DNA from: Daphnia pulex
Lineage: Eukaryota; Arthropoda; Branchiopoda; Diplostraca; Daphniidae
Length of the DNA: 64,000 nt
Direction: 5' to 3'
NCBI RefSeq assembly: GCF_021134715.1
Contig: NC_060025.1
Location: 7,068,001-7,132,000 of the forward strand
Part shown: piece after piece, positions 7,703 through 32,869 of the stretch
Layout of the letters: each line of letters begins with the position of its first letter
How positions within the stretch are numbered: the first letter of the stretch is position 1
Notes under the pieces: model-generated
Seen by the model: only the letters and a program-made list of their open reading frames with translations
Database searches by the model: none
What the model was told of the DNA's origin: nothing
Translations under genes and position numbers: made by a program

Positions 7703-10700
7703 GCTTGACCAACTGGATCGTGAACAAAATTTTACTATTATTTTATTGAAGTATTTTGTTATTACCCAATCTGCAATTGTTTTAACTCGAGATATTAATC
7801 CATGATTTGGTTGATCTCCTAGCACACGATATCTGCGCCAACTTTTTTTAAATTGTATTAAGCAGATAGCTGTGCGTGTTTTATTCCTTTTGTTTGGATT
7901 GTTTTTCGCCACCACATTAAATGACCGATCTGATTTTCATCAAAATAATTTTTTTAGCTCTGAATTTATAAGTAACTGTGTAACTCTGTGTATCTCACAT
8001 TTTGCTTGTACATAACGTGCCAAAATTTGTTTTATGTACATTTACGAATGCTTAAGACAAATATAATACGAGAATCGTATTTCTATACAAAATCCGTTCA
8101 ATTCTTTTCATTTTTATTGAAAGTTAAAGAGAACGTAAACTGTAAACGCAAGTGATTTCTTTGTTACGTGATTTGCGATGTCGTAAAAGTGTAACGACTT
8201 CCACCACTGGCCGTTAGGTGTCGTTAGTTTGCATGAACGTCCGCTAGATGGCTTAGAATGTTGTGTTGCTTCCATGAAAAAAAGGAAGTAGGAAAAACCG
8301 CTAATAAGTCACACACCGACGGGAAAAAAGAGGGTGGTAGTTTTGTGATTGCTCATCTGAGTGTCGAAACTCAATTTAACCAAGGATCACATCGTGTCGA
8401 GTTCACAAGATTTCGCCGTCCCACGACAACAGTCAATCTTTCACAGCCAACACAAGCAACACCAACCTCCCTTTCCACCCGACTTTCCTCGACAGTAGTA
8501 CTGTACTACTTGAAAGCAACTGAGTAATTTGACGCCAGCTCAAGTCCCCCCTCACAGTAATTTTTAACATTTCCTTCAAACTGAAGACCGTTTATTCTGA
8601 CTTGTTTCGACTTTCGACGTTTGAAGCTTCTTTGTCTGCATCTCATCCTACTGGACTGTTGATGGTAGGTTGGAATATTTTTCAACACTCCCCGTCATAT
8701 TGTGGTGTTTTCATTTGAGTGATTGAGTCATCATTTTCTTGTGGTCACAGTGTGTCAGCAGCTTAGTGGTGGCCACTTGATCAAACTGTTGACTTCAAAA
8801 ATCATTCCCATATCATTCACAGTTTACTTTTTGTGTTTGTAGTGTTCTTCAGCATGTTTGTCATTAGTATCAAGGCCACCGTTGCTTGACAAACACAAAC
8901 TGTGTCTCTCCAAGTCCATGCAACATTGTAGAGCTATCATTAGTCTGATAAGTCAAGTGTTTAGGTACGAGGGTGCAAAATGAAACTAATTGTAGGGTCC
9001 AACTGTGTTACCCACTTTGGGTAGCACAAAAGACCATTAATCAATAGCAACTAAAATCTTTATTCAATTAATTTAAACAAAAATACTATGGGAATTTTAT
9101 GTGGAAAGGCTGAGGTTACTCAATCACACCATCAATCAGAGTCACTTTGGTGCTGTCAAGGCTAACAAAGTGTTCGAAAAGCGCATCGGAAAATTCTGAA
9201 TGTAGGAAACGAGGAGAAGCAACAATGTACACATACGTTGATTGAAACGGCATTTAACCAAAGTGGCCTGCAATTTAGTTGTTTAACTTTTTGTTCGTAC
9301 GATGCTGTTAAGAAGCAAAAAAAAACTAAGCAAAAAGATTTACGTATTCAAACAGAACCTGTTACGATTGTTTAAACTCGGCAGATTTTCAGGTAAATTC
9401 GCTACGTGCCTTGAAAGCTCAATAGTTTCGCAATCTGAAGTGGCTTCTGTTTGACGAGAGCGACACACACTATTCGGTTGAAAGTAAGAACAAACAAAAT
9501 TGACTTTTCTAAATTCGCTGAAAAAATACAGCATCCGTGTTTGCTGTATTTGGTTCAAAGGGAAAACAATTTCAGATTGCTGGTAAACATGGTTTGAAGA
9601 ATCAAGTAGCCAATAGCCAAGGATTAACAATATTTGCCGTCAGAACAAATATACTACGCTGCTGGAGATTGCCACTCGCTATGTAACTATTGTCACTGGC
9701 TGAATCGAATTGCTTTGTTTGTTGACTTGTCTTCGTCAGCATTTTCCTCTTTTCTTTTTCTTTTTACCAATAGGAGGAATTGCATTTTCCTAGTTTGCTA
9801 TTAACTTGGACTCTTTTAAACCACTACGTCAGTGTCAAGGAAGAACCGTTGGAGAAGACGTTCTCCTCCACAGAACTTAATCCTTTTCTTTTTTGAGCCC
9901 AACGTCTGTATAGTATGTAAACAAGTCCATCAACCATCCCGAGTACTTTGTCTCTCTGGGTCTTGCCAGTCGGGTCATTGACTCGCCAGTGAAATCAGTC
10001 ATACTCTCAATAGCGCAGAAGTCGACGGAGCCAAAACTTTTTGAATCAATCACATCTTCAGAAAGCTGCTGCTGTAATCGCTGAAGTGGAAACTAACGTG
10101 GTTGGCCAGCTCCATCGGATAACTAGCCCAGCTATAGAGTTGGAGAATGCGCACGATAGTAACCATAGTAACACGCTACGTGCGAATTGGAAGATTTTTG
10201 GGGGCAATGAGTTTTTACGACCCAAAACACTCTGAACGCGTCGTCAACAGGAAAAAAAAAAGAAGGGGAGAGAAAATAAAAAACAATTCGTTATCTGGTC
10301 TCATAAACATCCTTTTTGGCGCCAGAACCGATATCGGGAATTAAAAAGGGGAACAAATTCGAATAATCAAGAGGATGCAGGAATGCAGTCGGCTACGAGA
10401 GTGTGACGTAATTTCGGTCGTGGAATCCATTTCAAATGTTGTAAACGAAACCGTGAGAGTGCATGCGTCAGCGTGTTGTTGTTTTTTAAACTCGTTTCTT
10501 TCTCTTCTCTCGCCGTCATTCCCGATCTGAGAACCCAATCCTTGTGTACATATTTTTGGCCGATCTCGTTTCACTCTGCCTGTTCGATTCCAAAAGTCCA
10601 CTTTCAGTTACACACGCACACAATCAAGTTCTCGAGCTTCAGTTCGGGAGATTTCCAGTTAAGAATTGACGCGCGTTGGAGCGTGCCTGAAGCATTCTTT

Positions 10701-10927
10701 TATCGCCTTGTATTTTGTTTTGTTTTTTCATTTTACTTTTATTTTATTTTTTGTTGTTCTTGTTTTATTGATTTACAGATTGCTTTTCTGGGCTTGTAGC
10801 TGCCGTCATCGTTGAGGGTTCCGGTTTGGTAATGGAGCGTGATTGAGTGCTTCCTCTCTTGATTTTTCGGGCTCAATTAGAAGAGCCGTTGCATCCGGAC
10901 CGAAGAGCAAAATACATACCGTAAAAG
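7703..10927. other. 3' UTR of echinus-like gene, intergenic DNA, and 5' leader of RalGPS
   Basis: The segment just after 7702 is AT-rich, as expected for a 3' UTR. From about 8150 to 10700 I see only short unrelated frames without family signatures. A pyrimidine-rich acceptor (TTGATTTACAG, ending at 10778) suggests that a 5' UTR exon of the RalGPS gene runs from about 10779 into the start codon at 10928. Nothing else is supportable. Confidence 0.45.
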
Positions 10928-13900
10928 ATGATGGCTAAAATGAAATATTCCGAAATACCACGCGATTTGTCTTCAGACAGTATCGCCGCCTACAGGCTCG
11001 CCCAGGTAAAAGACAATCATCAAATTGGTCGCGAAAGGTGAAAATTAACAATTTAATTTGTTTCTTCCAAATAGGGATCGCCTGATCGAGACAAATGGAA
11101 AAGAAACTCGAGTGAGGGTCGAGGTAGTCCAGAATCGGGAACTTCATCCAGTGATTCTCCACCCGTCCGACTCTTTCACCAACAGCTGTCGTCACGTCGA
11201 TCCACTTCAGCATTTCGCTCGCATTGCCTGGGCTCGCGGAAGGAGTCGCCCGAGCCGCCCGACGAAGTGGACGGCAATGGGGACGCTTTTGTCCGTGCGG
11301 GATCGAGTCATCGTCAGTGCGAAATGGATCAGCAGCACCGACGTTCTAGTCGACGCGGAGCCAGCCCCGCCCAACCAACTCCTTACATGTTACACCAGTA
11401 AGCCTCCTCCCACCTTGTTGGTCCGGATCCGATCCGACATCCTCCGCCCATTGAAAAACAGGATGGGGGCCCACCCATCCAATTTGTCTCGTTTGCCTCA
11501 TTATTGAAACTTACCTCGACCGCGTTCGTCACAGTCTGTTGACTAAATGTCTTGTTTTCTTTGTATTTTTCTCTCCCCCTCATTTGCCTTTATGTCCGTG
11601 TGTCGAATCGGCCAGTTCACTGCCTCGCTCGGCCGGAGCCAAATCGAGCAGCTTGCCGGCCAGTGCTCGGTCCGGTCTATCGGCCATGCTGTGCGTTGAT
11701 GGCTCAGCGATGGAACGCCATGCCGACTGCCCCGTGCAGTCCATCGTCAATGTATAATATAACCAAGCATTTTCCGGACTTTTGTAAAAACATTTGGAAG
11801 CGGATGGCTAATTTCTTCTCGTTATTGTTTCTAATAGGTGAGCGCGGAAAGCGTGGCTGCCCAATTGACCCTGCTGGTCGTTCCCATCTTTCAAAACATC
11901 CAGCCGGAGGAGTTGACATCTTGCGGCTGGTGCAAGAGCAACAAACTGGAACTGGCGCCAAATGTTGTGGCCATGACGCGCCATTTTAATCACGTCAGTT
12001 TCTGGACCGTCCAGGAGATACTCAACGAAGCGAGCGTGAGGCCGCGCGCGGAAGTCGTCTCGCATTTCATCCGCATCGCCAAAAAGCTGCACGAACTCAA
12101 CAACCTGCACACGCTGATGGCCGTCGTCAGCGCCCTGCGCAGCGCTCCCATCTACCGCCTGCAGAAGACGTGGGCCGCCGTCACCAAGAAAGACGTCCAG
12201 TTGCTGGAACGATTGGCCGACTTGTTTTCGGATCACAACAACTCTGAGAAGCTGCGGCAACACATGGATTCGCTCAAGCTGCCTTGCGTTCCGTATTTGG
12301 GCCTTTTCCTGTCCGACGTCAACTTTATCGACGTGGCGCACCCGCACCACGGCGGCCTTGAATCGCAACGACGACAGTTGCAGATGAACAACTTGCTACG
12401 AATCTTGGCCAACTACCAACAGTCGGATTACTCCTTCCTGCCTGTCAAGAATCACGTGATGGAGTACCTGCGCTCAGCCAAATACATAGAAGAATTGCAA
12501 AAACTCCTCGAAGACGACCAATATAAGTTGTCGCTGAAGTTGGAGCCTTCCACGCCGCCGAGCTCGACGGGGTCCAAAGAATCCTTTTACGACGTCAAAT
12601 CGGCCATGGGCCAATTGAACGTGTCGCCCAGGAAGGCGGCTTCGGTCCGTAAACCGGCAGTGACATCTGACGGCTCTGGCCACGGCGTCAAATTTGTTCC
12701 CGGCCATACGAAATCCAGGAGCTTGGGTACAAAGTACGTATCAACACTCCCGTTTTCTGTTTTTCTTTGTTTACCTAAACTAACTGGCCATTATATAGAC
12801 CCATATTTGTGTCTTAACCAATTTTTTGCGGTCCGTAACCGATTGGGTGATGGTTTTTTCGTGTGTAGGGGACCAATAAGAATAGTTTCCATGACAACAT
12901 ACTAATCCAGTTATTCTAAGTCGAAAAAAAACAAAAACAACCATAACTTTAGTGACTGATCTGATTGTTTATTGACAACAACTTGAAGATTGAGGAGCGC
13001 CAGCTTACCCCGAAGTGCGTATCGTCAGCCCTTTACGGCAGCGTCGGGCGATTCTTCGTGAGTTTCGGGTTGTCCATTTACCCACCGCAACGGAATGCCA
13101 CCTCCTCCTCCTCCGTTTCCCCCAAGCACTCTTTCGTCTTGTCTTTATTTACGAGCCTCTCTTTTTATTGCACTACCTCTGCCGATTCATTTCTAGTCGA
13201 TGTCTTTTGTATTTATTTATTTTGTGGTCTGGTGTCTGTGTGCGTGTGTTGTCTGTTTTGCTCGCCCGCTCCGTTCAGTTAACTGGTTACTAACGTATAC
13301 ATTGTCGGGTATCCTCCCTTGCCCCCTTTTCTTTTTATCCATTCGCAGCATATTCCGGAATGGATCTAATCACGCGCCGTCGTACCTCAAAGAGAACGAG
13401 GCTGGCAGCGGCGTCTGGCGGCATTCGCTGGCCAACCATGGCTTCGATTCGACGCTTCGCAATTTGATTGACGACAGTGTCCAGGAAGAATCGACGACCA
13501 CCACATCGTCGTGTGCGATGAACTCGTCACCACGTCAGTCACTCCACGGCGAGCTTGATCCTTCCGCCCCCCACAACAACGACAACCATTCCGCTCAAGG
13601 GTAATAATTGCATTTTGGGCTCCGAATCATTCTAAATGAAATTACTTCTATTATTGACATGAATGTCCAGGTCGGATCACTCTCTTAGTGGATTGGATTC
13701 GCCTTTGCCACCTCCGCCCATCCGCTGCTGTTGCATTCAGGGATGCGTCCGCAAAAAAGCCGTTTTGAAAGATGGCCGGCGTCCGGCCGTCAGTGCATGG
13801 CAGAGGTATTGGATACAGCTCTCTGGTTCCAACCTGCTTTTTTATCAACCTAAACACCTCCGAGGGTAAATAAAAAGAAAAATCTTTTATTATTGTGTTT

Positions 13901-14205
13901 ATTGCGCTTTGTTTATTTTATTTTCAACGAAACAAAATTCTTTTCATCGATTTAGATCCGACCGATCGGATTTTCGACGACGCCCCTTTAAAGCCGTTTC
14001 CATCACCGGCTGGTCAGTGGAGCGGCACCACAGTCCTCGCCATCCGGACTCTGTTTTATTGAAAAACACTCAAAAGGGTGACGCCTACAAACTTCGTATC
14101 GTCTGTCCGGACGCCATTGAAGATTGGCTCAATTTGTTGACGTTGGCCATTGAAACGCCAGCTGAGAGTTCAGACGACGCAGAGAATCTCATGTCATTTG
14201 AATGA
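10928..14205 (+). CDS. RalGPS: RalGPS-type Ral guanine nucleotide exchange factor
   Basis: Seven coding exons: 10928-11005, 11075-11397, 11616-11751, 11838-12733, 13349-13600, 13671-13865 and 13956-14205. They keep frame throughout and give 709 residues. A Ser/Pro-rich N-terminus of about 180 residues precedes a CDC25-type RasGEF domain (about 180-440) with IQPEELTSCGW, APNVVAMTRHFN, ELNNLHTLMAVVSAL and VPYLGLFLSDVNFID. The linker ends in a PxxP stretch (SPLPPPPIR). A C-terminal PH domain follows (about 580-690, GCVRKKAVL...WQRYWIQLSGSNLLFY...DWLNLL). This order (CDC25, PxxP, PH) is diagnostic for RalGPS1/2, which load GTP onto Ral and are recruited to membranes by the PH domain. The CDC25 exon is unusually long and intronless. 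A likely poly(A) signal AATAAA is at about 15288. Two adjacent start ATGs are present; the first was chosen. Confidence 0.92.
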
Positions 14206-15420
14206 GCCTTCGTCCGTCCTCGACTCGACAGCTGCCCACAGCTGCCGTACCGGATAAGAGTATAGAACATTTTAATGCCCAGTTGGTGTTCTCCTCGCCT
14301 TGGTCGTTGGTCATCGTGAAACACAAGATGATACTCAATGCTGGATAAGATAAGTAACGGGTGGGAAATGATTGTCGACAATTTTGGACCTTTGCCCAGA
14401 ATTCTCCGTCACGGAAGAAAACTCCTCACTCTTATTTGCCATCCCGTCAGTTCCTTCACAGATGAGTGACTGACCTTTTTTGGATGTGTGTATGTGTGTG
14501 TGTGTGTATTTTTTCTCGTCATCAATTATGTAATTCTCATAATCCCACATGTATAGGTAAAATTTTTTTTTTCTTTTGGCTCACTCCTATCACACAGCTG
14601 CTTTCGTTTTTTGTGTGTGTAGTAAAAAAAAGGAAGAAAAATAATCCAGCCTTCTGCCCGGCACGCCTCCTCTTTCCTACTCGTCGTCTTATATTTGAAG
14701 CTCAATCGATTCCTCTTTAAGATGATTGCTGTTACTATAATTTTGTCCTTGTTAAAGTCACACGCGCTCTCGACGTGTGAGCGGAATCTCTCGTTATTGG
14801 ATCAACGTGCTCTCTCCCCCTCCCCCCCTCTTCCGTTCACGACACCGCAGGCATCACCGAATTAACACGGAAGCAGCACGGATGTGGTGTTGCCTTTTCT
14901 AAAAAAAAAACATGTTCTGGCATTCGTTGTGTTTTTCCCCTCGGCTTCATCGACATGTGTTCCCTTATTCTTGCCCCCTTCATTTTCTGTTTGCTCCTCT
15001 ACGTTCTAGTCTGTCTTGGATTTAAGGAGAATGACAGGACAACCCGTTTGTGTCCTTGTCTACCATCATCAGGAAAAATAATTGAAATTAGGAATCTGAA
15101 GGAGCAATTCAAAAAAGTAGCATCCGAAATCTTGTTGTTCTCGATCTTGCGAATACATGAAATAATTCTCGTTCACGTAACGATTTTTGTTGGTCATTTC
15201 TTTTACGTTTCTCTGTTGCGAAGATTTTCTTGGTGCTTCAAGTGACGTTTTTCTTGGGCTTTTCGATAAATTTTGGTCTAAATATTAAATAAATAAATGG
15301 TTAAACTTTTCCTTTATCAACAACCTTTTGGTCACCTACGGTTGAAGACGGGATCGGCTAGTTTACGCAAAATAAATATTGAAATGATGCTGAAATGAAG
15401 CAATTTAAGAAATAAAAGGT
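14206..15420 (+). other. RalGPS 3' UTR and downstream flank
   Basis: This stretch is a non-coding tail with a TG microsatellite at about 14484-14507 and an AATAAATAAAT cluster near 15288 that probably ends the RalGPS transcript. About 120 bases further on begins the 3' fragment of the interrupted tRNA-Glu. A TTTT on the minus strand at 15413-15416 would serve as that tRNA's polymerase III terminator. Confidence 0.5.
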
Positions 15421-15421
15421 T

Positions 15422-15437
15422 TTCCCATACCGGGAAT
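15422..15437 (-). tRNA. 3' fragment of an interrupted tRNA-Glu gene
   Basis: Read on the minus strand this is (A)TTCCCGGTATGGGAA: the 3' side of the T-arm (CCCGG), the 3' acceptor strand (TATGGGA) and the discriminator A. TATGGGA is exactly complementary to TCCCATA, which opens the 5' fragment 4.8 kb away at 20308. A TTTT tract follows six bases later, as expected for a pol III terminator. The 16-base poly(A) tail of the inserted retrotransposon abuts it directly. The first A may belong to either the tRNA or the tail. Confidence 0.85.
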
Positions 15438-15650
15438 TTTTTTTTTTTTTTTAGGAACGTTTCTGTATTTCGGAGACTGATTAAACTAGACAATTAACTG
15501 ACACAGTGGATCAAAAAACAAAGGGACAATACACGTTATGACTATACGGGGTTATCACAGGGTGGGTGTAAAAGAGGCAAGGCCTTCCTGAGAGGGCAGG
15601 GGGGGTTCAAATAAATTAAGAGCATGACGAATGGTTCGGAATAGAGACTG

Positions 15651-18600
15651 TTAATGGGAAAACTGTTGACCGGGGAAGGAGGATTTCCATTTGTGCTGTA
15701 TTTCGGCGATGGTAAGTAAACGGCGACGCTGGCGAGTCCTCCAAGAGAGGTCAACAAAGACCGCTACCAATAAACGGGCGGGGGAACGATACGGCAGTTG
15801 TCCGACATCTCCTCTGATCCAAGACGAAAGATTACCGACGCAGCCAAGGGTCTGGAGAGTTGACTGGAGCCAGGCCGTTAGTTCTTGGCGGACGGGGCAG
15901 CCGATCATCAGATGTTCCGCCGTTTCGTCCTCCAGGTGGCATCGGTCACAGATCGGGTCCACTCTTGGGTCAATGTTATGGCAGCGGTCTCGCGTGAAAA
16001 GTAGCCGGTGGTTGAAGAGAAACTGCGACTCGCGGATGGGCGGTGGGAGGAAACGGGCAGAGCGCCAAATCGCCTCCCAGTCCAGCAGCGGCTGGGCGCG
16101 TTCCATATGCCCTGGGACGAATTCCGGTGTGAGAAGTAGAGAATAAATCTTTCGATGGGTCAGAGGAGACGGTGGGGAGAGTCCGTTGCCGAAGAGCGCT
16201 TTAAGACTCCGAAGGGCGGTTTCGATGTGCGCCGGACGCTGGAAGAAGGACATCGGCGCCGGTGTGTCGGTGAAACAGTGTAGGAAGGCTCGCGTTGGGA
16301 AGGCGAGCCAGTACCGAAGGAGAAAACGGCCGCAGGTGTCAGGACCTAGCACGGTGGCTGCGATGGGCCGGAGAAACAGAGCCTGTAGGAAGAGGTCCGT
16401 GTGTAGCATAGCTAGACCGCCGGCTGTGGTTGGCCGGAAAATGGCGCCGGGTTGAGGCCGCTCCAGTCGCCCGGCCCACAGGAATTTCGTAGTGGCGCTG
16501 TGGAGTTTGACAGCAGACGACGGCGGGCAAGGTAGGACTTGGCCGATAAATACAACTCTAGAGTAGGCGTCGGTCTTGAGGAAGTGAACCCGTTGGTGCA
16601 GGGAAAAGCAGCGGCCAACATTGGTTCGGAGAATCCCCTGCAGGTGGCCTAAGGCCGCATCCCAAATCCGGTTGGTCGTTTCTTGGATGGAATGGGAAAA
16701 CGAGATACCGAGGAGGGTAAGCGTTGGGTCCGATGTTAGCCAAGGCACCGGCCATGTTGTGCGCTGCGCCCATCCTCCGAGGCCAAGGGCTTTTGACTTA
16801 ACAGTATTAAGTCGAGCGTTTGTCCATTGGCAGAAATCGTGTAGAATTTGAACACCGTGGCGGATATCGCCATCCGAGTCGGCAAATATGGCGACGTCAT
16901 CGACAAACGCCCGTGTAACCAACTTCCGGTTGAACATGGTAATCCCCGTTAGTTCATGGCGCAGCCGGCAGAGGAGCGGCTCCAGAAAAAGCACATAGAG
17001 GTGGATCGATAACGGGCAACCCTGTCTCAGAGAGGCGCTGCATGACACGGTTCCAGCCACCGTTTGACCGTTGAGAATGGCCATCCGGGCTCCAGCGTAG
17101 AGGGATTGGATCCATTTGATAAAGAATTCCGGGTATCCAAAGGCGTGCAATATCCGCCAAAGTGTTTCTCTCGGAACCAGATCATACGCCTTGGCAAAGT
17201 CAACGCCAATGACGACGCCGGGCACTGCTTTTGTCGATAAGCTGGAGTTGCAAGGGCCGTGTCGCTCCTCTATGAAGGCAATGACGTCTCGATAGAGCGA
17301 CAAGTTATCGCTGATTTTTCTGCCAGGTACTCCGCCACACTGAGAGGGTCCGACGACGTCGGGCAGCGTCTTTTTGAGGCGGTGAGCGATTGTCCCGGCC
17401 ATTAATTTGTAATCACAATTCAATAGCGCTATGGGCCGATAATCAGACACCGTGGTGGGACAGTCAGATTTCGGCACTAGACGTATCAATCCCATAGCTT
17501 GGGATTCTGTCACGCGACCGTGACGTAAGACGGCTTCAAACATTTCGAGAAAGATGGGCCCGATATCGGCCCAGAACTGTTGATAGAAGTCGTAGGGCAG
17601 CCCGTCCTCACCAGGGCTGCCATTCAGTGGCATTTTAGCAAGAGTGGAAGCCACCTCCGCTAGTTCGACAGGGCGTGAAAGTTCAGAAGAGAAAACCACT
17701 TTCTGGATTCCACCAAGGAAGGAGGTCTCCATGGCAGCGTCTCCACTAGGCTCCTGACTGAAAACTTGACGGAAGCTGTCGGTAAGGATCTGGTTGATCC
17801 GCCCGTCGTCGACAATCAATTCACCGTTGCCGCCGGACAAGGAGCTGATCATGGAAAGACGTCCACGGGTTGTTTCCTTCCGGACATGGTAGAGCGACGG
17901 GGAGTCCGTATCGGTGACTGAGGTGCAACGGGAGCGAATTTTCGCACCCTGGAGAAGCCGAACATTCCAATTACGCGCCTCCTCCCGGAGAGCTTGATAG
18001 TCGGGCCAGGAAAGTTCACGGCCCGGTTGGGTCATCTCGGAAAGGCAGTTCTGGTAGAAGCGGCCCATCTCTCGGCCCAGGCGCGCTCGACGACGGCAGT
18101 AACTTTGGGCTATTCTTTTCACCCCTGGTTTGAAAATACTGTCCCACCATTCGGAGACATTAGTACGGCGGAGGGGGAGAGCTGACACGGTGGCAAGGAA
18201 ATTACGGAAGAGGCTACCGAAAGCGTCTTCCGGCACTATCGACACGTTCAACTTCCAGATGCAGGACTTAGGGCGTTCTTCTTTGCTCGTTTCAGACAGC
18301 AGGGAGCAGTGGGCGAGGATGGCAGAGTGATCCGTGACGTAGGTGGAATCTAATCGAATATCAGTGACAGAATTTTTGATGGAGCGGGAGCAGTAGATCC
18401 GGTCAATCCTCGCGGATCCGCCTTGATGGGTAAAGGTGTGGCCTAAATCTCGTGGCCGCAGGGCCTTCCACATATCAACCAGTTCCAGGCTGGCCACCAG
18501 GGCCACCAAGGCGTGATCAACTGGGGTAGAAGGCTTCGTCCCAGCCAATCTGATGCGATCTTGAGGGCCATCAACTGCATTGAAATCCCCGACCAAGATA

Positions 18601-18980
18601 AGTGGCCGTTTGATGGAGGATAGGAAGGCCGGAACTATGACGCGAAAGAAAGCACTGCGCTCGTCACGGAAGACTCTCCCGGACGGGGCGTAAGGGGAAA
18701 CAAAAGAGACATTATTAAATTGAACAGATATGAGGCGGCCGTCTGGGTCACACACAGAATGATGAACAGCAATATGTTTTGCAACCAATATTGCCGTTCC
18801 CGCTTTATTCGGCCCAGGAGCGGCGAAAAGCTGGAAATGATTTTCCAGTATGGGGCAGGAGGCGAAGGCGACTTCTTGTAGACCGACTACGTCGAATTTC
18901 TGTGTTAAGCAATAATTTAGGAGAAGGATAAGGCGTTCTTCCGAGCTGATTCTTGCAATATTAATTGTAGCAATCTTCAT
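15651..18980 (-). CDS. LINE ORF2: APE endonuclease plus reverse transcriptase
   Basis: 1,109 residues, uninterrupted. Residues 1-220 resemble an APE-like endonuclease: TINIARI at the start, GLQEVAF (metal-binding Glu), VGDFNAV and TDHSAIL (Asp-His pair) near the end. The reverse transcriptase spans about 440-800 with DYRPIALLNCDYK, GRKISDNL, GVDFAKAYD, RQGCPLS and the catalytic box FVDD near residue 692, a variant of the usual YxDD. A C-terminal Cys/His cluster (CDRCHLEDETAEHL) lies near residue 1008. In this class the enzyme nicks the target and primes reverse transcription on it. The start ATG follows the ORF1 stop by two bases, so translation probably depends on re-initiation. The antisense frames inside it are not genes. 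Confidence 0.93.
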   Translation of the reverse strand: MKIATINIARISSEERLILLLNYCLTQKFDVVGLQEVAFASCPILENHFQLFAAPGPNKAGTAILVAKHIAVHHSVCDPDGRLISVQFNNVSFVSPYAPSGRVFRDERSAFFRVIVPAFLSSIKRPLILVGDFNAVDGPQDRIRLAGTKPSTPVDHALVALVASLELVDMWKALRPRDLGHTFTHQGGSARIDRIYCSRSIKNSVTDIRLDSTYVTDHSAILAHCSLLSETSKEERPKSCIWKLNVSIVPEDAFGSLFRNFLATVSALPLRRTNVSEWWDSIFKPGVKRIAQSYCRRRARLGREMGRFYQNCLSEMTQPGRELSWPDYQALREEARNWNVRLLQGAKIRSRCTSVTDTDSPSLYHVRKETTRGRLSMISSLSGGNGELIVDDGRINQILTDSFRQVFSQEPSGDAAMETSFLGGIQKVVFSSELSRPVELAEVASTLAKMPLNGSPGEDGLPYDFYQQFWADIGPIFLEMFEAVLRHGRVTESQAMGLIRLVPKSDCPTTVSDYRPIALLNCDYKLMAGTIAHRLKKTLPDVVGPSQCGGVPGRKISDNLSLYRDVIAFIEERHGPCNSSLSTKAVPGVVIGVDFAKAYDLVPRETLWRILHAFGYPEFFIKWIQSLYAGARMAILNGQTVAGTVSCSASLRQGCPLSIHLYVLFLEPLLCRLRHELTGITMFNRKLVTRAFVDDVAIFADSDGDIRHGVQILHDFCQWTNARLNTVKSKALGLGGWAQRTTWPVPWLTSDPTLTLLGISFSHSIQETTNRIWDAALGHLQGILRTNVGRCFSLHQRVHFLKTDAYSRVVFIGQVLPCPPSSAVKLHSATTKFLWAGRLERPQPGAIFRPTTAGGLAMLHTDLFLQALFLRPIAATVLGPDTCGRFLLRYWLAFPTRAFLHCFTDTPAPMSFFQRPAHIETALRSLKALFGNGLSPPSPLTHRKIYSLLLTPEFVPGHMERAQPLLDWEAIWRSARFLPPPIRESQFLFNHRLLFTRDRCHNIDPRVDPICDRCHLEDETAEHLMIGCPVRQELTAWLQSTLQTLGCVGNLSSWIRGDVGQLPYRSPARLLVAVFVDLSWRTRQRRRLLTIAEIQHKWKSSFPGQQFSH

Positions 18981-18982
18981 GA

Positions 18983-20053
18983 TTATTCTTGATTGAGTTT
19001 AATTTTCTTTGTTCGCGTACGTTTCCTCCTGGTCTGTCCTTGCGGGTCACGATCAGGTCCGGAGTCGTTCGACTCTGAGATTGGGTCTTCTGCGGTCGAT
19101 AATGTGTCGATATGGGAGATTTGGCTGGTGACACCTTCACTGGATGGGTCTACCGATATGGCCAGGGCATCACGTGGCGTGGCCTCTTGAGTTTCTGGCA
19201 CGACGGATGGGTTGACCGACGGCATCGGCGTTGACTCATTTTCGGGCGTCTCTGGAACCAAACATGAGTTCTCGGCTTCCCAGCACGGCCGTGATTTGTT
19301 ACGACTCGTGACTGTTTGCCACTGGGCAGCGTCTGACGACAATAGCGGGGGGTAGTTTGTGGTCGTTAGTTTTGGCGCTTCCTTGGTCGTTGGGGCTTTG
19401 GCCGCTTGGACCTTGGCAGCTCCCTTGGTAGACGCCACTCCTTTGCCGGTAGGTGTAGGGACTGTCGGCGAGTTTTTCGTCAACTTCTGAGGACAGGCCG
19501 TTGCCATATGGCCCGTTTGATTACATTCTCTGCATGTTATGGGCTGATTTGAGTAGCGCACATAAATTTTGTAGTCCCCTACTTGGAGGTAAGAGGGAAT
19601 GGCAGCATTCAAGGTCATCCGCAGCGTTACTTGGCCTTTGAGGCAGGGGATCATGCCAGCTGTTGCACCCGCGTACCGATCTTGCCGTAGATCAAGCACG
19701 GTACCAAATTCCCGCAGACGAACTTTGAGGACCTCCATATTGGCGTTGGGCGGATAGTCGGAAATCCGCACAAATTTTTCGTCCACGTTGGGGTCTTTGA
19801 TGAGTACCTGTATCGGGCGACCTTCAAGGAGATGCTGATGAGGGCCGCCATGTTTGTCCAGAATTGCCGTAACATCTGCAGACTTGAGCAGGGTGACTCG
19901 CACGACCTGATCACCCACTAGAAGAACTGGTGCGATCGCCAAGATTTGTGATGCTTGGAGGCCGAGACCAGTCACAAAACGGTGCACTGTTAATAACTGC
20001 AGACGGGGCTGCGGGTTACCAAACCCAATTTCAAAGGTGTCCTCATACCTCAT
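18983..20053 (-). CDS. LINE ORF1: nucleic-acid-binding protein with CCHC zinc knuckle
   Basis: About 356 residues from the ATG at 20053. An upstream in-frame extension to 20101 would need a GTG start and codes for a proline run, so I rejected it. One zinc knuckle of the form C-x2-C-x4-H-x4-C (CRECNQTGHMATAC) lies around residues 174-187. It follows a region that may fold as an RRM-like domain (VLIKDPNVDEKFVRI, VLKVRLREFG). The C-terminal third is Ser/Thr/Pro/Lys-rich and ends in a basic patch (RRKRTRTKKIK). In L1/Tx1 elements ORF1 coats the element RNA and acts as a chaperone. The stop TAA and the ORF2 start lie in TAATCATG. Confidence 0.85.
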   Translation of the reverse strand: MRYEDTFEIGFGNPQPRLQLLTVHRFVTGLGLQASQILAIAPVLLVGDQVVRVTLLKSADVTAILDKHGGPHQHLLEGRPIQVLIKDPNVDEKFVRISDYPPNANMEVLKVRLREFGTVLDLRQDRYAGATAGMIPCLKGQVTLRMTLNAAIPSYLQVGDYKIYVRYSNQPITCRECNQTGHMATACPQKLTKNSPTVPTPTGKGVASTKGAAKVQAAKAPTTKEAPKLTTTNYPPLLSSDAAQWQTVTSRNKSRPCWEAENSCLVPETPENESTPMPSVNPSVVPETQEATPRDALAISVDPSSEGVTSQISHIDTLSTAEDPISESNDSGPDRDPQGQTRRKRTRTKKIKLNQE

Positions 20054-20257
20054 GGCGAAGCAGAGCCTCAAGCCGGGAGGAGGGGGGGGCAATAAAGTCA
20101 CGGACTAATAAGCCCAATAAAACCCAAAACGAACAAAAACACTTCCTAGTAATTTAATAAATACTCTCTAGGCACGATGCACTTGAAAAGTCCCTATAAA
20201 ACACTGATGCAGGCAGATTCACCATGCGGTCGGGGGGAGCTCGCGAAAACACGTCCA

Positions 20258-20308
20258 CCGAGCCTCTTGGGTGAAAGCCAAGTATCCTAGCCACTAGACC
20301 ATATGGGA
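20258..20308 (-). tRNA. 5' fragment of an interrupted tRNA-Glu (anticodon TTC)
   Basis: The minus strand from 20308 gives 51 bases: acceptor strand TCCCATA, a D-arm (GTCTAGTGGCTAGGAT), an anticodon arm with a perfect stem (CTTGG/CCAAG) and loop CTTTCAC (anticodon TTC, Glu), variable AGGC, and the start of the T-stem TCGG. The match stops there and retrotransposon sequence begins with TGGACG. The missing remainder is at 15422-15437. Only about five T-loop bases (expected GTTCG) are absent from the two halves together. The A box is present but the B box is destroyed, so this locus cannot make a tRNA. Confidence 0.88.
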
Positions 20309-21165
20309 TGAAGCATTTCCCATGAAATTGACATCTATATATTAGACTGGATTACAAAATTCTAAACTTGTTGATTTCGATGTCTAATCAATTTGCCAAC
20401 CGCTAGCTTTGGGAATAGTGTGCTTCTCACTTTCCTGTGTAGTGTTTTGTGGTTTATTTCACTAGCAAACTGTCTTTAATACAGAAAAGGGAGGGTAATG
20501 ATGAAACAAAATTTGCTGCAATGAATCGGCAACCCCCGCTTCAGTACGCACTAGTAGAACAGCAGCACGACTTTCGGCTCTGGTGAGCCCTAACATTTTT
20601 AAAAAGGAAGAGGGTCCTGGGCTGTTAGAGAGTTAGACTGGGTTTTCGTCGGTTTTCGTGCAAATTGTCCCTTGGATCCTGTCTGTGTAAGTGGACGTGG
20701 TTAAACGTGTTGAGACAGACAATATAAAACAAAACATCCTGATTCAGCGGATCATGAGCGTTGTCAAATGTCGATTAAACCGCTTTTGTCGTTTTTACGG
20801 AATGGATTGAGGGAAAGGGTCGATTTTTGGAAGGGGAGGACTGGAGGAGTCGATTTTTCTACCCGGGGGGAGGGGCCTACAAAAGTGTCGTCTGCTTTGT
20901 TTTGTTTGATTCAATCGTTAAGCAGACGCCAGACGTCACAGACACACCTTAAAAACACAACACCAAGTCACCACACAGGCCTGTCACTCAACGTAGGCCA
21001 CACCGGCACCTCAGACTGGTTAACGCTTGAAGATGGACCACAGTAGAAGGTAATATTGGTGCGATAAATCTCAGAAAGCTATTTATTTCTACATCAATTA
21101 CAAGGTATGCTCTGATGCAACTGTGTTACAATTGAAGCTAATATAATAATCCATTTTTATTCATA
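20309..21165. other. Spacer between the split tRNA and the TFIIE-alpha copy
   Basis: No recognisable gene. Short frames (for example around 20768-21046) have no family signature. A good acceptor-like ATTCATAG sits just before 21166, where TFIIE-alpha similarity begins. Confidence 0.45.
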
Positions 21166-22238
21166 GATTTGTGTTAATAATATATTGTTGAATAAAAATT
21201 GGACCATATGAGAAAGAAGATGGAAACCTCTGTTGAAAGAGATGCCACTAGCTTCCACTGTCCATGCTGTAAAAAGAATTTCAGTGATTCGAAAGCTGAC
21301 AGACTATTTGATCCTGCTGACCTGAGTGGGGAATTCAAATGCAATTTCTGTGGTGCAGTGATTATTGAAAACGAATTAGCCATACTAAAGAAATATTTAC
21401 GGCAGCAAATGGCTTGGTTCAACAACCAAATGAGAAAATTTCCCCTGTACAAACTATACTAAGAGAAGTTGAGGATGTGAAACTGGCCCCAGCCTTGCTT
21501 GACCAAGACCCAATGCTGATATAACTCATCTGCAATTTTCCCAAAGCTATGCCTTATCTACAAATCGTCTTTCACTATTTGTATAAGGAATGCCATTGGC
21601 AAACCCAAATTCAGGGTAGCTACTTGCGAAAATTGGTCGGGAGAGGCAACCAGAGGAGGTGTTTTCCGACTGGATGAACAAAGCGTCTACGTCACTATCG
21701 GTGATAATGCGGTTGTCAAGAAAGGAGTTCGCAAGGAGGACCCCATATGGATGAGAGAAAGTACCGTCGATAATGAAGCTGCTACCAGCACCAATGACAA
21801 TATTGCTGGACCTACGATCATTGACGAGGTATAAAACTGGATTCTATTATACCTATTAAAGTAACATCTTATCAATGAATATCAATCTTATCCAGATGGA
21901 GCTACCTACTCTCTCTACGGAGAAGAATCGCAACCAAGAAGACATCATGTCGGTCCTTATGGAACTCGAAAAACCAAGTACAAAGGCCGCTGTTCCAGCC
22001 AATTCAAGTGATGATTAATCTGTTGCAAAGGTTTCTTCTTGAACAACTTACTCATACATGTAAATTTTTGTTTGTCTTCTTAGGTGATGTCGAGCTGATG
22101 GACACTGACTCGGAAGAAGAAGTTTCTCTGGTGAGAGTTGGAAACTTGGAATTCCCTGTTCAAGAAGTTCCAGCTGAACAGGTTGCCCGGATGGCGGCTT
22201 CCGAAAAGGATGCCTACGTCGACTTGCACTTCTTGTAA
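21166..22238 (+). pseudogene. GTF2E1: Decayed partial copy of TFIIE-alpha (GTF2E1)
   Basis: The segments match TFIIE-alpha in order. LDHMRKKMET...RDAT leads into a zinc ribbon with four cysteines (CPCC...CNFCG). A linker follows with EVEDVKLAPALL, and then a segment reading GGVFRLDEQSVYVTIGD...PIWMRESTV. The acidic C-terminal exon (22085-22238) reads LMDTDSEEEVS...ASEKDAYVDL. Damage is clear. There is an in-frame TAA where a Tyr codon is expected just before the KLDHM motif. A +/-1 shift occurs after the KFPLY segment near 21452. A stop follows DPML near 21522. The donor after 22015 is lost, and the last residues are missing. The N-terminal winged-helix exons are absent. Because introns (about 21832-21896 and 22016-22084) remain, it arose by DNA-level duplication rather than retrocopying. 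TFIIE-alpha itself recruits TFIIH to promoters. Confidence 0.75.
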
Positions 22239-23138
22239 CCATTGCTACCTCTCGATGAATATTTGTACTAAGGCTATTTCGATTCCTGGTGTAACTTGTC
22301 TACTTCTCGCCAGATACTCCCTGGTTTTCTCGATCTCTGTTTTCTCAAGGTGCTATTTGCTCGGTTTCTCAAATGTGCGAAAGACAAAGAAAAAATTCTT
22401 CCTTTTCCGTTTACTCCTCTCTTTCGTTTCTTCTTCCGTTTTGCATCTGTGAGACTTGAGACTTCTCAAAACAAAATTTAAAAACACTACAGATTCGATT
22501 ACACTTTGATTAAATTTTTCGCCCTTTTATTCAAAAATTGAATTTGGAACGTAAGATATTTATCAAATCTTTGTTTTTTTAAATCCACGCTTTTGATTTC
22601 AAAATAATTTTAAAATTGGGGATGATGTACGTAGTTAATTGAAAGAAAGAGATTAGAGATAATTTTGCCATAACGTAACTAATTTTTTTTTTTCAAAATT
22701 CGATGTTTTTTCGATACTTCTTAGTTCTTACTGATATTCTGAATACATGAATGGAACGGAACTTTCGCGACGATTATACGAAAAATTAATTTTTTGCTTG
22801 ATGGAAAAATGAATAAAATTTCTCTAAGAAATTGAATTAAGACTTACTGGATATTCTAATTTAAATGGAGTTCTACTGTCGGACACGAAAATAATTTTAA
22901 AATCGTTGGAGTTCTATTGTCGCGTAGTGGAGTTCTACTGTCGGATATTTTAAATAATATTTTTTTAAAAGAGGAGTTCTTGTGTCTTTGGAGTTCTACT
23001 GTCAGCAACCCTACAGCACGACCCTCATCGTAAAGGCGAAAAGGGCTGTAAGGCTTTCATTCACAAACGTCGTCTTTTCTTCAGTCCTCATCAGGAATGG
23101 ATTGGGAACCATTTAAAAATAATATTCATCGCGTGGAT
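22239..23138. other. AT-rich spacer with a repeated 15-mer
   Basis: No coding signal. The right half carries the repeat described separately. The last 120 bases are the left flank of the DIRS-type element. Confidence 0.5.
22867..23001 (+). repeat. Dispersed short direct repeat GGAGTTCTACTGTCG
   Basis: Near-identical copies start at about 22867, 22908 (one C to T change), 22929 and 22988, with a weaker partial copy (GGAGTTCTTGTGTC) at about 22975. Spacing is irregular (41, 21 and 59 bases), so this is not a simple tandem satellite. It may be the end of an unrecognised transposon or a cluster of protein-binding sites. I cannot assign it to a family. Confidence 0.7.
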
Positions 23139-23208
23139 AATTGGTAAATTGTTCGAGCGAGCTTCAGCTCGCGATGAACAATTGGGATTGTTGGGGGAAT
23201 GGAGTGAA

Positions 23209-23330
23209 GACATTGACTGTGTGCGACCTCTATATTTAGCTGCTTCTCAGCAAACAAAAAAGAACAACAAAACGGGGGATAGGTGAGAGATGGCGCTCAG
23301 GTGGGCGGATCTCCCCCTTAGACACGTCAG
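23209..23330 (+). repeat. Left inverted terminal repeat of the DIRS element
   Basis: It runs from GACATTGACTGTGTGCG to CTTAGACACGTCAG and is the reverse complement of 27476-27597 over 122 bases with no mismatch that I found. Identical arms indicate recent transposition or gene conversion. Confidence 0.92.
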
Positions 23331-23662
23331 CATTGGAAGCATATAATAACTGTGGGTCTGGCTTAACGGAAAGAGTTTAAGGCGATCCACGGTTCAAATA
23401 GTCTATTTTCTGTTGTTGTTGTTGTTCTCGTCGCCTTTATTGGCGGGATTGGCTGCGCCGCGGCCGTGATTTGATCTTTGGCCACCGTTGTTGTATCTAG
23501 TAAAAAGATAAAATGAAAGAGAATTAGTGGGCCGTCGACGATCAATGGATGCACCTAATTCGAGTTAAGTATTTAAATAGTTAGAAATAGCTCGGTATTA
23601 AATATAAGATAAAAATAATAATGGAAAACGGGAATGACGTGGGCGGGATGGGTGGTTAGAAG

Positions 23663-23774
23663 ACAGTCAATGTCTTCACTCCATTCCCCCAACAATCCCA
23701 ATTGTTCATCGCGAGCTGAAGCTCGCTCGAACAATTTACCAATTGTCGGTAAATTCGTTCGACATTGACTGTGT
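23663..23774 (+). repeat. Internal complementary region of the DIRS element
   Basis: Bases 23663 to about 23744 are the reverse complement of the left terminal region (23139-23221). The following bases to 23774 are the reverse complement of the right terminal region (about 27584-27616). The switch occurs at CAATTGTCGG, where both ends share ATT. In DIRS-1 such a region is proposed to template completion of the ends during circle formation. It sits just downstream of the recombinase stop at 23811. Confidence 0.9.
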
Positions 23775-23810
23775 CTTAAAAGCAAGATACCCTCTGGTCA
23801 ACGGCTACTA

Positions 23811-25310
23811 CTAGTCGGAGAGTTGAATTTGACGCTCGCTGGAAACTTCTGGGCTGCGTAGGATGGATGCGCCCACCAAATCGGTATTTTCTGGCACGGT
23901 TCTTTTATAGAACCTAGCAAAGGTAGATTCCCGGCTCCAGTGGCCTAAATTCAGGATCGATTGGATTGGAACGCCTCTATTCATCGCCTTAGAAGCGGCT
24001 GCTCCTCTTGCTGAATGGGCCGAAAAAACTGCCGTATCGATACTTGCTTCTTTTAATTGCTCCTTGATCCAGCGTCCAATCGTCGAGCTTGATACGGGTT
24101 TGTGGGGCTTGTTTGAACCGATGAAGAGTGACTCGCTATTTGAGTCGTTCCTAAGCGGAGCCGTGCGGTCCATATAGTTCCGCATGCAGGCCACTGGGCA
24201 AATGGCGGGTTTCTGGTGCCAAGCTCCGACTGACAGCACGTGAAGCGGGCCGGAATGTTGGGCTTTCCTTGGGCGGCTCAAAACAAACTTTACTCCTCCT
24301 TCCGAGAAGCTGATGGAATGGAGCTGGATGGCAGCTAGATCGGCGCATCTCGAAAGCGAGGTAAGGGCAAGAAGAGTGGTCGTCTTGCGGGCTAGCTGCA
24401 AGATTGAGAGGCTGTCCTGGGCGCTTGCGGATACTTCTAAGTGTGTCAATACTACAGAAGGGTCCCATGTATTCGTATATCTGGGCTCAGGTGGCTTTTC
24501 ATTATAGACTCCTTTCATAAGGTTAACGACCAGGGGGTTCCTTCCAACCTCTAGATTCTCTGACGATAAGCTTAGGGTGGATGAGAGCATTGAACGGGCT
24601 ACATTTACCGTGCTGTAGCTTTTACCGGAATGAAAATAATCCGAAAGGAAATTTAATACCTCCTTGACGCCAGACGACAGGGGATTGTGGTTCCGTTGAC
24701 TACACTAACTGCTCCAAGCGACCCAAGCGGACTGGTATGCAGAGTGTGTATTTGAACGAGTTGCTCCCAATATGAGCTCGATAACTTTTTCCGGAAAGCC
24801 TCGCTCTTCCAGACAACTCCGGAGAGCCGCCAGGCGATTAGACGGATGGACTCGTCTTTCGTCAATGGATGACCCTCCCCCAACGGGGACGTCAGCAACG
24901 ACTTGGATGGGAAGAGAAGGAGCGGAATGTCCGTTGCTAGTTCCATCAAGGACGGGAACCAGCATTGGCTGGGCCAGTAGGGTGTCACTAGTACAATCTC
25001 GGCTTGTTCTTGCCGAACCTTCGTCAGACAGAAGGGAATCAAGTTGAAGGGGGGGAAACAATATCCCGCGAGAGCCTTCCAGCTCAGCGACAGAGCGTCT
25101 GTTTTCCAGGCTCCCGGTTGCGGAAACCGGCTGACAAAAATCGGTAACTGAGCGTTCCAGGAGCTCGCGAAGAGATCCACTTCTACTTCCCAGATTGCCT
25201 GAATTGTTTTGAACGATTGCGGGTCCAGTTTCCAGTCCCCCGACGACAGAGGCCTCCGAGATTCTGCGTCGGCCAGAATATTTGTTACGCCGGGCACAAA
25301 TACGGCACAA
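23811..25310 (-). pseudogene. DIRS tyrosine recombinase ORF, interrupted by one TAG
   Basis: One continuous minus-strand frame from within the end of the RT/RNase H ORF to 23811, broken only by TAG at 24707-24705. Before the stop is the N-terminal core-binding segment (LRSCLEERGFPEKVIEL, SNTHSAYQSAWVAWSS). After it, with no frame change, come CSQRNHNPLSSGV and the catalytic domain: Arg I in SLSRCADL, the HxxR box in HSARGAAAS, GHWS, and the nucleophile Tyr in FARFYKR. Related recombinases usually have Trp at the stop position, so TGG to TAG is the likely change. All catalytic residues are intact. A shorter protein could start at 24590 but would lack the N-terminal DNA-binding part. The true start within the overlap is uncertain. 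Confidence 0.85.
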
Positions 25311-27445
25311 AGAGACAAGTTACGGCACTCGCACCATTTCGAAATTTCCAATGCGATACTGCAAAGGTTCGCTGATTTACAACCCCCCATTCTGTTCACG
25401 TAGCTGACAGCTGAGGTGTTATCCATCCTTAATTCGATTGTGGTGTCGTGGGCCGTAGCTGTAAAGCATTGAAGGGCCTTGAGTGCTGCCAGGAGCTCTA
25501 AAAAATTTATGTGTTCGTTGCTTTCGTCCTTTGTCCATGGACCCCCCGTTCTCAAATCTTTGCATACTGCCCCCCATCCTGATAAGGATGCATCCGACGC
25601 GATGGACAGATCCGGCGCCGGAAAAATGAGCGGTCGGCCAGATAAAAAATCTGCCTCTGAAAGCCACCAAAGTAGGTCTTTACGCGCCTCTTTTGACAGG
25701 GTAAAGGATTCACTTGACCTAATCAGACGGCCTTCTGGCCGGGAGTTCAGGAGGATCTGAAGACCGCGGAAATGGGCTGGGGCAAAGTTAACTGCTGCTG
25801 CTGCCCAATTCAAATTTCCGATAATCTTTTCCAGATCGATTTGGGAAATTTGAGGTTCCTTCAGCGCAGATTTACAAAGGCGAAAAATGTCAAGTCTCTT
25901 CCTGTCCGGCAAGATTAGTCTCATTTTGACTGAGTCGATGAACAGGCCTATGTATTCTAATTTCTGAGAGGGCTCTTCCGATGATTTTTCGTTACTAATC
26001 ACGAAGCCTAGGGACTCTAGCAGCAATCTTACTCTTTTCACAGCGACCTTGGCTTCCGACTGGGAGCTAGCCGCGATTAGAATATCATCCAGGTAAATCA
26101 CGAGACGGAGGCCGTTCTTCCGCAGGAAGGCTACCACTACCCTTAAAAGCTTGGTAAACGCCCATGGCGCGGAGCTTAAACCGAAGGGGAGGGACACGAA
26201 TTCGAATAAAACGCCCTCCCATTTAAACTGAAGGAATTTCCGATGGCCTTCAAAAATAGGGACCGTCAAATATGCATCTTTCAAGTCCAACTTGGTCAGC
26301 CAATCCCCTTCCCGAATCGTATGTCTCACTGATGAAATGCCCTCCATCTTGAATTTTTGATAAGACAGAAAACGATTAAGTGCTTTCAGGTTAATGATGG
26401 GCCTATAACCTCCTGTTCTTTTCGGAATTAGAAAAATGCTGGAGATGAAACCTTGATCACGGGCCCTAACAATCGCTCCTTTTTCTATGAGTGAATTCAC
26501 TTCCTGCTTGCAGCAATCGTATTGATGCGTGTCCATGCAGGCGTTTGGTGGAATAAAAAATTGGACGGGCTCAGAAATAAAGTCTAGTTGTAAACCTTGA
26601 GACACCGTCGATAAAATCCACGGGTCGAGAGTAAGTTTTGACCATTCAGACGCAAAACGCGCTATGCGACCCCCAAAAGAATCGTGAAAGGCAAGAATAG
26701 TTTGGACATACCGGGATCCGGGATTTGAATAGCGACCGCCTGAAGATGCCGGTGGATTGCTGAAACTGCGACCCGATTGGCGTTGACCATGACCGCCGCT
26801 GGATCCAGACGCGCGAGGGGCTCCCGCGGTTTCAAGAGCGTTCAGTGTCTTTACCTGCTCGACCAGGGCCTGGGTAAACTTCGGACCGAAGAGATGTTCT
26901 CCGCCGGTTGGTAGGATAGCCTTGTCGTCCAGTAGCCCGATATTCTGTGGGTAGATTTGGGCCAGAATGTTGCGCCGTCGCGCGTTCGTGATGTCATGGT
27001 ACACCACCGCCCAGAGCTTCAGAGCCGTCTTAACCGCCTTGGCGTCGGCTCGGGATTTCTTCTTTTTCTTGATTCGACTCGCCAGAAACATGATGGGCTT
27101 GACTAAGTCAAGGATCTTGAAGGTTTGGTTTCTGTAGATCTTCTCGATTGGGTCGATGTTGGCCTTAGCTGCCGAAGATGACTTAACTGCCTTCAGCCGG
27201 ATGTAGAAAGCCTCATCTAGATTGGGGTTGATCAGCAGGTCGGCGTTCTTCTTTAGCTTGGGTCTAAAGGCCTCTCTAGCACTTTTCGCTCGAGTGTCAT
27301 CTAAACCCGATACAACCCAGCCGGCTAAAGTAGCTGACTTTTCACTTGAGAGACGAAATTTCTTTACGCCTCCCCCTCTTGATGAATCGGAGCCTGAACT
27401 ACTAGAACTTGAGCTAGAGTCGCTTGACTGATCAGGATCCGACAT
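24653..27445 (-). CDS. DIRS Gag-like / reverse transcriptase / RNase H polyprotein
   Basis: 930 residues with no interruption. The N-terminal 280 residues are Ser-rich then basic and Gly/Ser/Arg-rich, as in DIRS Gag-like regions. The reverse transcriptase (about 320-560) shows GGYRPIINLKALN, LTKLDLKDAYLTVPI, LPFGLSSAPWAFTK and the catalytic YLDD near residue 450. RNase H (about 615-720) shows SIASDASLSGWGAV, NFLELLAALKAL, RMDNTSAVSYVN and ILADAESRR. This RT/RH type with a following tyrosine recombinase identifies DIRS rather than Gypsy elements. Its last 600 bases overlap the recombinase frame. It starts at the ATG 30 bases inside the right inverted repeat. Confidence 0.93.
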   Translation of the reverse strand: MSDPDQSSDSSSSSSSSGSDSSRGGGVKKFRLSSEKSATLAGWVVSGLDDTRAKSAREAFRPKLKKNADLLINPNLDEAFYIRLKAVKSSSAAKANIDPIEKIYRNQTFKILDLVKPIMFLASRIKKKKKSRADAKAVKTALKLWAVVYHDITNARRRNILAQIYPQNIGLLDDKAILPTGGEHLFGPKFTQALVEQVKTLNALETAGAPRASGSSGGHGQRQSGRSFSNPPASSGGRYSNPGSRYVQTILAFHDSFGGRIARFASEWSKLTLDPWILSTVSQGLQLDFISEPVQFFIPPNACMDTHQYDCCKQEVNSLIEKGAIVRARDQGFISSIFLIPKRTGGYRPIINLKALNRFLSYQKFKMEGISSVRHTIREGDWLTKLDLKDAYLTVPIFEGHRKFLQFKWEGVLFEFVSLPFGLSSAPWAFTKLLRVVVAFLRKNGLRLVIYLDDILIAASSQSEAKVAVKRVRLLLESLGFVISNEKSSEEPSQKLEYIGLFIDSVKMRLILPDRKRLDIFRLCKSALKEPQISQIDLEKIIGNLNWAAAAVNFAPAHFRGLQILLNSRPEGRLIRSSESFTLSKEARKDLLWWLSEADFLSGRPLIFPAPDLSIASDASLSGWGAVCKDLRTGGPWTKDESNEHINFLELLAALKALQCFTATAHDTTIELRMDNTSAVSYVNRMGGCKSANLCSIALEISKWCECRNLSLCAVFVPGVTNILADAESRRPLSSGDWKLDPQSFKTIQAIWEVEVDLFASSWNAQLPIFVSRFPQPGAWKTDALSLSWKALAGYCFPPFNLIPFCLTKVRQEQAEIVLVTPYWPSQCWFPSLMELATDIPLLLFPSKSLLTSPLGEGHPLTKDESIRLIAWRLSGVVWKSEAFRKKLSSSYWEQLVQIHTLHTSPLGSLGAVSVVNGTTIPCRLASRRY

Positions 27446-27475
27446 GATGTTTGCACAACGAGAGCGAAAAGAGAT

Positions 27476-27597
27476 CTGACGTGTCTAAGGGGGAGATCCG
27501 CCCACCTGAGCGCCATCTCTCACCTATCCCCCGTTTTGTTGTTCTTTTTTGTTTGCTGAGAAGCAGCTAAATATAGAGGTCGCACACAGTCAATGTC
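27476..27597 (-). repeat. Right inverted terminal repeat of the DIRS element
   Basis: Reverse complement of 23209-23330. It lies immediately upstream of the polyprotein start and therefore probably carries the element's promoter. It is followed by a 19-base outer extension ending at ACAAT (27616). Confidence 0.92.
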
Positions 27598-27616
27598 GAA
27601 CGAATTTACCGACAAT

Positions 27617-28054: not shown

Positions 28055-32869
<4,815 letters not shown>

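Follow-up and report, generated by a model that had tools for sequence, protein, structure and literature searches.

Several non-long-terminal-repeat (non-LTR) retrotransposons are known to be associated with multicopy small-RNA genes, and against that background we analysed a long interspersed nuclear element (LINE) lying within a glutamate transfer RNA (tRNA) gene in a 64,000-nucleotide stretch of Daphnia pulex DNA (assembly GCF_021134715.1, contig NC_060025.1, positions 7,068,001 to 7,132,000 of the forward strand; hereafter the window, numbered from its first letter). Among the closest described systems, the planarian element LIN25_SM is specific for tRNA-Glu genes, the planarian LIN15_SM for tRNA-Arg and NeSL-1_TV for tRNA-Pro; all three are treated as NeSL-related (the position of NeSL-1_TV being left unresolved in that paper), and NeSL is counted among the clades with a restriction-like endonuclease, while Keno and the target-specific Tx1 clade are given an apurinic/apyrimidinic (AP) type endonuclease (Kojima and Jurka, 2015, PMC4640811). 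Mutsu inserts in 5S genes, Keno in U2 genes and Dewa in the spacer of zebrafish tRNA-Leu genes (Kojima and Jurka, 2013, PMC3706591). The Dictyostelium elements TRE5-A and TRE3 insert outside tRNA genes, ~50 bp upstream and ~100 bp downstream respectively, and TRE5-A needs a functional B box, the consensus of which is written GTTCRANNC (PMC5391098).

On the minus strand of the window, the first 51 nucleotides of a tRNA-Glu(TTC) gene are followed by a LINE of 4,820 nucleotides ending in poly(A), by the remainder of the tRNA and by a TTTT run. The features, all on the minus strand, are as follows.

20258-20308, minus strand: 5' 51 nucleotides of tRNA-Glu(TTC), by direct reading, single copy in the window.
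15438-20257, minus strand: LINE, 4,820 nucleotides with its poly(A), in the same sense as the tRNA, by direct reading.
20054-20257, minus strand: 5' untranslated region (UTR), 204 nucleotides before the first in-frame ATG of open reading frame 1 (ORF1), abutting tRNA nucleotide 52.
18983-20053, minus strand: ORF1, 356 residues and stop from the first in-frame ATG, PF00098, one CCHC zinc knuckle.
15651-18980, minus strand: ORF2, 1,109 residues and stop, with AP endonuclease, reverse transcriptase and C-terminal zinc region.
15438-15452, minus strand: poly(A) tail of 15 A, or 16 if the boundary A is counted, by direct reading.
15422-15437, minus strand: 3' 16 nucleotides of tRNA-Glu, by direct reading, single copy in the window.
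15414-15417, minus strand: TTTT, resembling an RNA polymerase III (Pol III) terminator, four bases past tRNA nucleotide 73, by direct reading.

The 5' part of the tRNA comprises the acceptor 5' strand, the D arm with the A box, the anticodon arm, the variable loop and T-stem nucleotides 49-52. The 3' part begins with A58, T59 and T60 and continues through the T-stem strand CCCGG and the acceptor strand TATGGGA, giving 15 nucleotides (15437-15423) plus the discriminator A at 15422; the boundary A at 15437 may belong to the poly(A). Absent between the two parts are nucleotides 53-57, which we take to be GTTCG from the near-universal sequence of the T-loop, or six bases (GTTCGA) should the boundary A be part of the tail. 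These bases form the core of the B box, the heart of the internal promoter of the gene. No direct repeat or target duplication adjoining the two junctions was found when they were compared. Within the window neither tRNA part is repeated, the 500 bases beyond each part have no second copy except for one 14-base chance match, and the longest stretch common to the two outer flanks is 9 bases. An earlier note on this DNA had described a full-length LINE that interrupts a tRNA-Glu gene in its T-arm, leaving both tRNA parts in place, and this description is supported: direct reading confirmed the split at 20258 and 15437 across 4.8 kb of LINE, the exact complementarity of the acceptor strands TCCCATA and TATGGGA, the terminator at 15417-15414, the start of the element at the T-stem, the contact of the poly(A) with the other half and the lack of a target duplication. 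Its count of about five lost T-loop bases holds as to number, but G53 belongs to the T-stem and only T54, T55, C56 and G57 to the T-loop.

The identity of the tRNA was taken mainly from base-by-base reading, because the support from Rfam and ARAGORN was partial. The reading gave complete D and anticodon arms, a TTC anticodon, perfect acceptor pairing and a T-stem of TCGG(G)/CCCGG. The mitochondrial model of ARAGORN called tRNA-Glu(ttc) for the flanks joined directly as well as for a join with five N, and the standard model called tRNA-Glu(ttc) of 72 nucleotides once GTTCG was inserted, so that the scan of the joined flanks proposed in the earlier note succeeded with the mitochondrial model and, with the standard model, only after this addition. 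Among 4,000 random control joins of 60+60 bases, taken from the same window, 23 gave mitochondrial-model calls across the junction (Glu in one) and none gave a standard-model call. The match of the 5' half to the Rfam tRNA model RF00005 extended into the first LINE bases (20240-20308). Several results weigh against the assignment: the standard model made no call on the bare join, and the relaxed setting (-ps50) returned an unrelated tRNA-Thr shape there; the RF00005 match reached 21.6 bits, below the gathering score of 29; none of the eight weak Rfam matches near the 3' part was a tRNA; and the whole window contained no Rfam match at the gathering score and no ARAGORN tRNA at default settings.

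Assignment of the LINE to the AP-endonuclease elements of the L1/Tx1 group, as claimed in the earlier note, is supported at group level by protein sequence comparison. The best solved relative of ORF2 was the human LINE-1 ORF2p (E 4.8e-45, residues 10-874), and the R2 proteins followed at 6.7e-17 and 7.9e-17 over the reverse transcriptase only (best over 446-730). Among the 15 solved sequences matched at E <= 0.001, the first four were LINE-1 ORF2 protein and the fifth an RNA-directed DNA polymerase; ORF2 is closer to L1 than to R2, and the reverse transcriptases of R1, I, CR1 and RTE were absent among these 15. The endonuclease matched 44 solved sequences at E <= 1, led by 2v0s 'LR1', 8sp5 and 1vyb (both LINE-1) and 2v0r 'LTX', with exonuclease III directly after these four; LR1 and LTX are presumably variants of the L1 endonuclease. 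Domain searches placed the AP endonuclease (PF03372, E 2.1e-12) at 11-224 and the reverse transcriptase (PF00078, E 3.7e-28) at 508-738 of the stop-to-stop translation, together with a zf-RVT domain (PF13966, E 3.9e-6, 27.9 bits) barely over its cut-off of 27.5. The catalytic motifs GLQEV, GDFN, IDRIY, TDHSA and FVDD are present, and the C-terminal zinc motif reads CX2CX8HX4C. The AP endonuclease at the N-terminus of ORF2 argues against a NeSL-type element, a restriction-like domain not having been sought separately.

In ORF1, which starts at element position 205, PF00098 was matched at E 2.1e-4 (21.7 bits, cut-off 20.8). A single-sequence structure model of ORF1, begun two residues ahead of the first ATG, had a mean predicted local distance difference test (pLDDT) score of 34 and was not usable, and comparison with solved structures returned three weak matches up to E 5, no LINE protein among them. 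Dewa and Mutsu belong to the Tx1 clade, and the ORF1 layout may be like that of Tx1. The ORF2 ATG lies two bases past the ORF1 stop (TAATCATG), and this spacing suggests reinitiation. With its 204-nucleotide leader, two open ORFs and tail, this single copy is judged to be full-length; the open ORFs and clean tail suggest that it is young. Its GC content is 53%, against 44% in flanking sequence sampled at 10001-15400 and 20401-23500. Folding gave no support (z-score 0.39) for recognition through a structured 3' UTR. That Pol III starting at the tRNA promoter reads on into the LINE seems unlikely, given weak B-box-like sites and early TTTT runs: within the first 600 LINE bases no B-box-like site has fewer than three mismatches over 10 scored positions, the best in the entire LINE has two (at element position 1903 and beyond), and the first TTTT in the 5' UTR lies at element position 9. 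The A box of the split gene is still present.

Set beside the described systems, the element resembles LIN25_SM in lying in a tRNA-Glu gene and differs from it in having an N-terminal AP-type endonuclease, whereas LIN25_SM is NeSL-related and of a restriction-like-endonuclease clade (PMC4640811). With Dewa, Mutsu and Keno it shares a multicopy small-RNA gene as target, and unlike Dewa it lies inside the tRNA gene and not in a spacer (PMC3706591). TRE5-A and TRE3 are likewise non-LTR elements associated with tRNA genes, but outside the gene (PMC5391098), whereas the present insertion falls between nucleotides 52 and 58 within it. Dada DNA transposons also occupy fixed positions inside tRNA genes, as well as in small nuclear RNA genes, but have a DDE transposase and make target duplications of 6-7 bp (PMC3706591), whereas no duplication accompanies this LINE. 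Mammalian LINE-1, the closest solved relative, has the same combination of AP endonuclease and reverse transcriptase in ORF2, and the CCHC knuckle in ORF1 sets the present element apart from it. LINE-1 prefers TTTT/A sites and makes duplications of 7-20 bp. Among the matches listed in open-licence PubMed Central, no AP-endonuclease LINE inside tRNA genes was found. LINEs in tRNA-Glu genes are already known; an AP-endonuclease LINE inside the tRNA-Glu B box would be a new form of such an element.

The LINE most likely entered the B box of tRNA-Glu(TTC) by target-primed reverse transcription, in the orientation of the gene itself. The antisense nick made by the endonuclease would lie at 5'-CCGGGAAT/CGAAC-3' or a base before it, and the poly(A) RNA would be reverse transcribed from the nicked antisense 3' end. 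The sense strand would be cut after G52, five or six bases upstream, and because this cut would lie upstream of the antisense nick, GTTCG or GTTCGA would be lost and not duplicated. Both cut positions, and the order of cutting and copying, are inferred. The nick site at CCGGGAAT/CGAAC contains no T-tract, while L1-type endonucleases favour T-rich sites.

From this one insertion, we consider it probable that the LINE family is specific for this tRNA-Glu site, because tRNA genes are seldom hit by chance and the nick site lacks a T-tract; published LINEs of tRNA genes (LIN25_SM, Dewa) make such specificity plausible, and precise junctions inside the gene together with a full-length copy are what a tRNA-gene-specific LINE would show. 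For such a family, the copy number of tRNA-Glu genes would provide a safe home. That the LINE instead lacks any tRNA specificity and landed in this gene by chance, the small deletion being ordinary end-joining noise, is unlikely but deserves weight. Only a single insertion was examined, and no second LINE copy was found in the window, where the element matched itself and two 17-base chance stretches only; both points weigh against specificity. Non-specific LINE insertions also show small target deletions, and genomes with thousands of LINE insertions do hold a few inside tRNA genes. General gene numbers and genome sizes put random landing in a tRNA gene at the order of 1e-4 to 1e-3 per insertion, and this low figure speaks against chance, as do a nick site that is not T-rich and the coincidence of the lost bases with the most conserved bases of the tRNA; the figure is, however, no clean test, because the insertion was picked from a 64-kb window as unusual. 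Scans of sequence collections were not counted against specificity because these were viral and prokaryotic, not animal: ORF2 peptide patterns, which reach close relatives only, matched one stretch in the viral and nine in the prokaryotic genome collection, none of them a relative; the junction of poly(A) with tRNA-Glu matched nothing in either, and the 5' junction nothing in the viral collection.

Guidance by the Pol III machinery (TFIIIC/TFIIIB), as for the Dictyostelium TRE elements but with an intragenic outcome in this copy, would fit the absence of the B box core and the dependence of TRE5-A on a functional B box (PMC5391098); we regard it as improbable, since TRE5 and TRE3 lie at the distances from tRNA genes quoted above and the endonuclease would need access to a B box occupied by TFIIIC. 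A reading in which the tRNA parts do not come from a host gene is more improbable still; they would then be tRNA-like ends carried by the element, like those of a tRNA-headed short interspersed nuclear element, or the product of an assembly join. Rejection of the bare join by the standard tRNA model would agree with such an origin, but the parts keep register with each other, their acceptor strands pair perfectly and a terminator follows; neither recurs in the window, their outer flanks are unrelated, and an assembly artefact would need two mis-joins, both exactly at the ends of the element.

As to what a site-specific family would recognise, the suggestion in the earlier note that the B box is the landing site fits the single insertion, but the consensus GTTCRANNC occurs at 19 sites in the window (nine on one strand and 10 on the other), so that the B-box core alone would not confine the element and more of the tRNA sequence would be needed. 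Tentatively, and with rather less than even confidence, we propose an AP-endonuclease LINE lineage, probably crustacean, whose endonuclease would read the T-arm/B-box core of tRNA-Glu (nucleotides 52-60), and in principle that of other tRNAs, and excise GTTCG(A), as an independent counterpart of the flatworm tRNA-Glu elements.

Elsewhere in the window, a DIRS-like element was observed at 23136-27616 on the minus strand, with a reverse transcriptase ORF at 24656-27484 (PF00078, 2.1e-22), a tyrosine recombinase ORF at 23814-24704 (PF00589, 2.2e-11) and inverted ends at 23209-23330 and 27476-27597 that are 100% identical over 122 nucleotides, two more inverted pairs lying near the ends. An ORF at 42190-42837 on the minus strand (216 codons stop to stop) resembles crustacean GSEFLamide neuropeptide precursors, with one LGSEFLGKR and three MGSEFLGKR repeats, and had no Pfam match. 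It points to a crustacean host, since all eight papers listed under the GSEFLamide name mention decapod crustaceans in their title or at the start of their abstract. Pieces of host genes were recognised among 10 window ORFs scanned: a RasGEF domain at 11838-12902 (plus strand), a protein kinase domain at 30971-32059 (minus strand) and a C78 peptidase at 53158-53688 (minus strand).

If the insertion in the tRNA-Glu gene was a single chance event, it amounts merely to one disrupted copy of that gene. If the LINE family is specific, tRNA-Glu genes would be a point of convergence for two unrelated types of endonuclease, and a comparison of these would reveal which properties let a small-RNA gene host such elements over the long term. 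For targeted gene insertion, too, a compact AP-endonuclease LINE with its landing site inside tRNA genes would be of interest.

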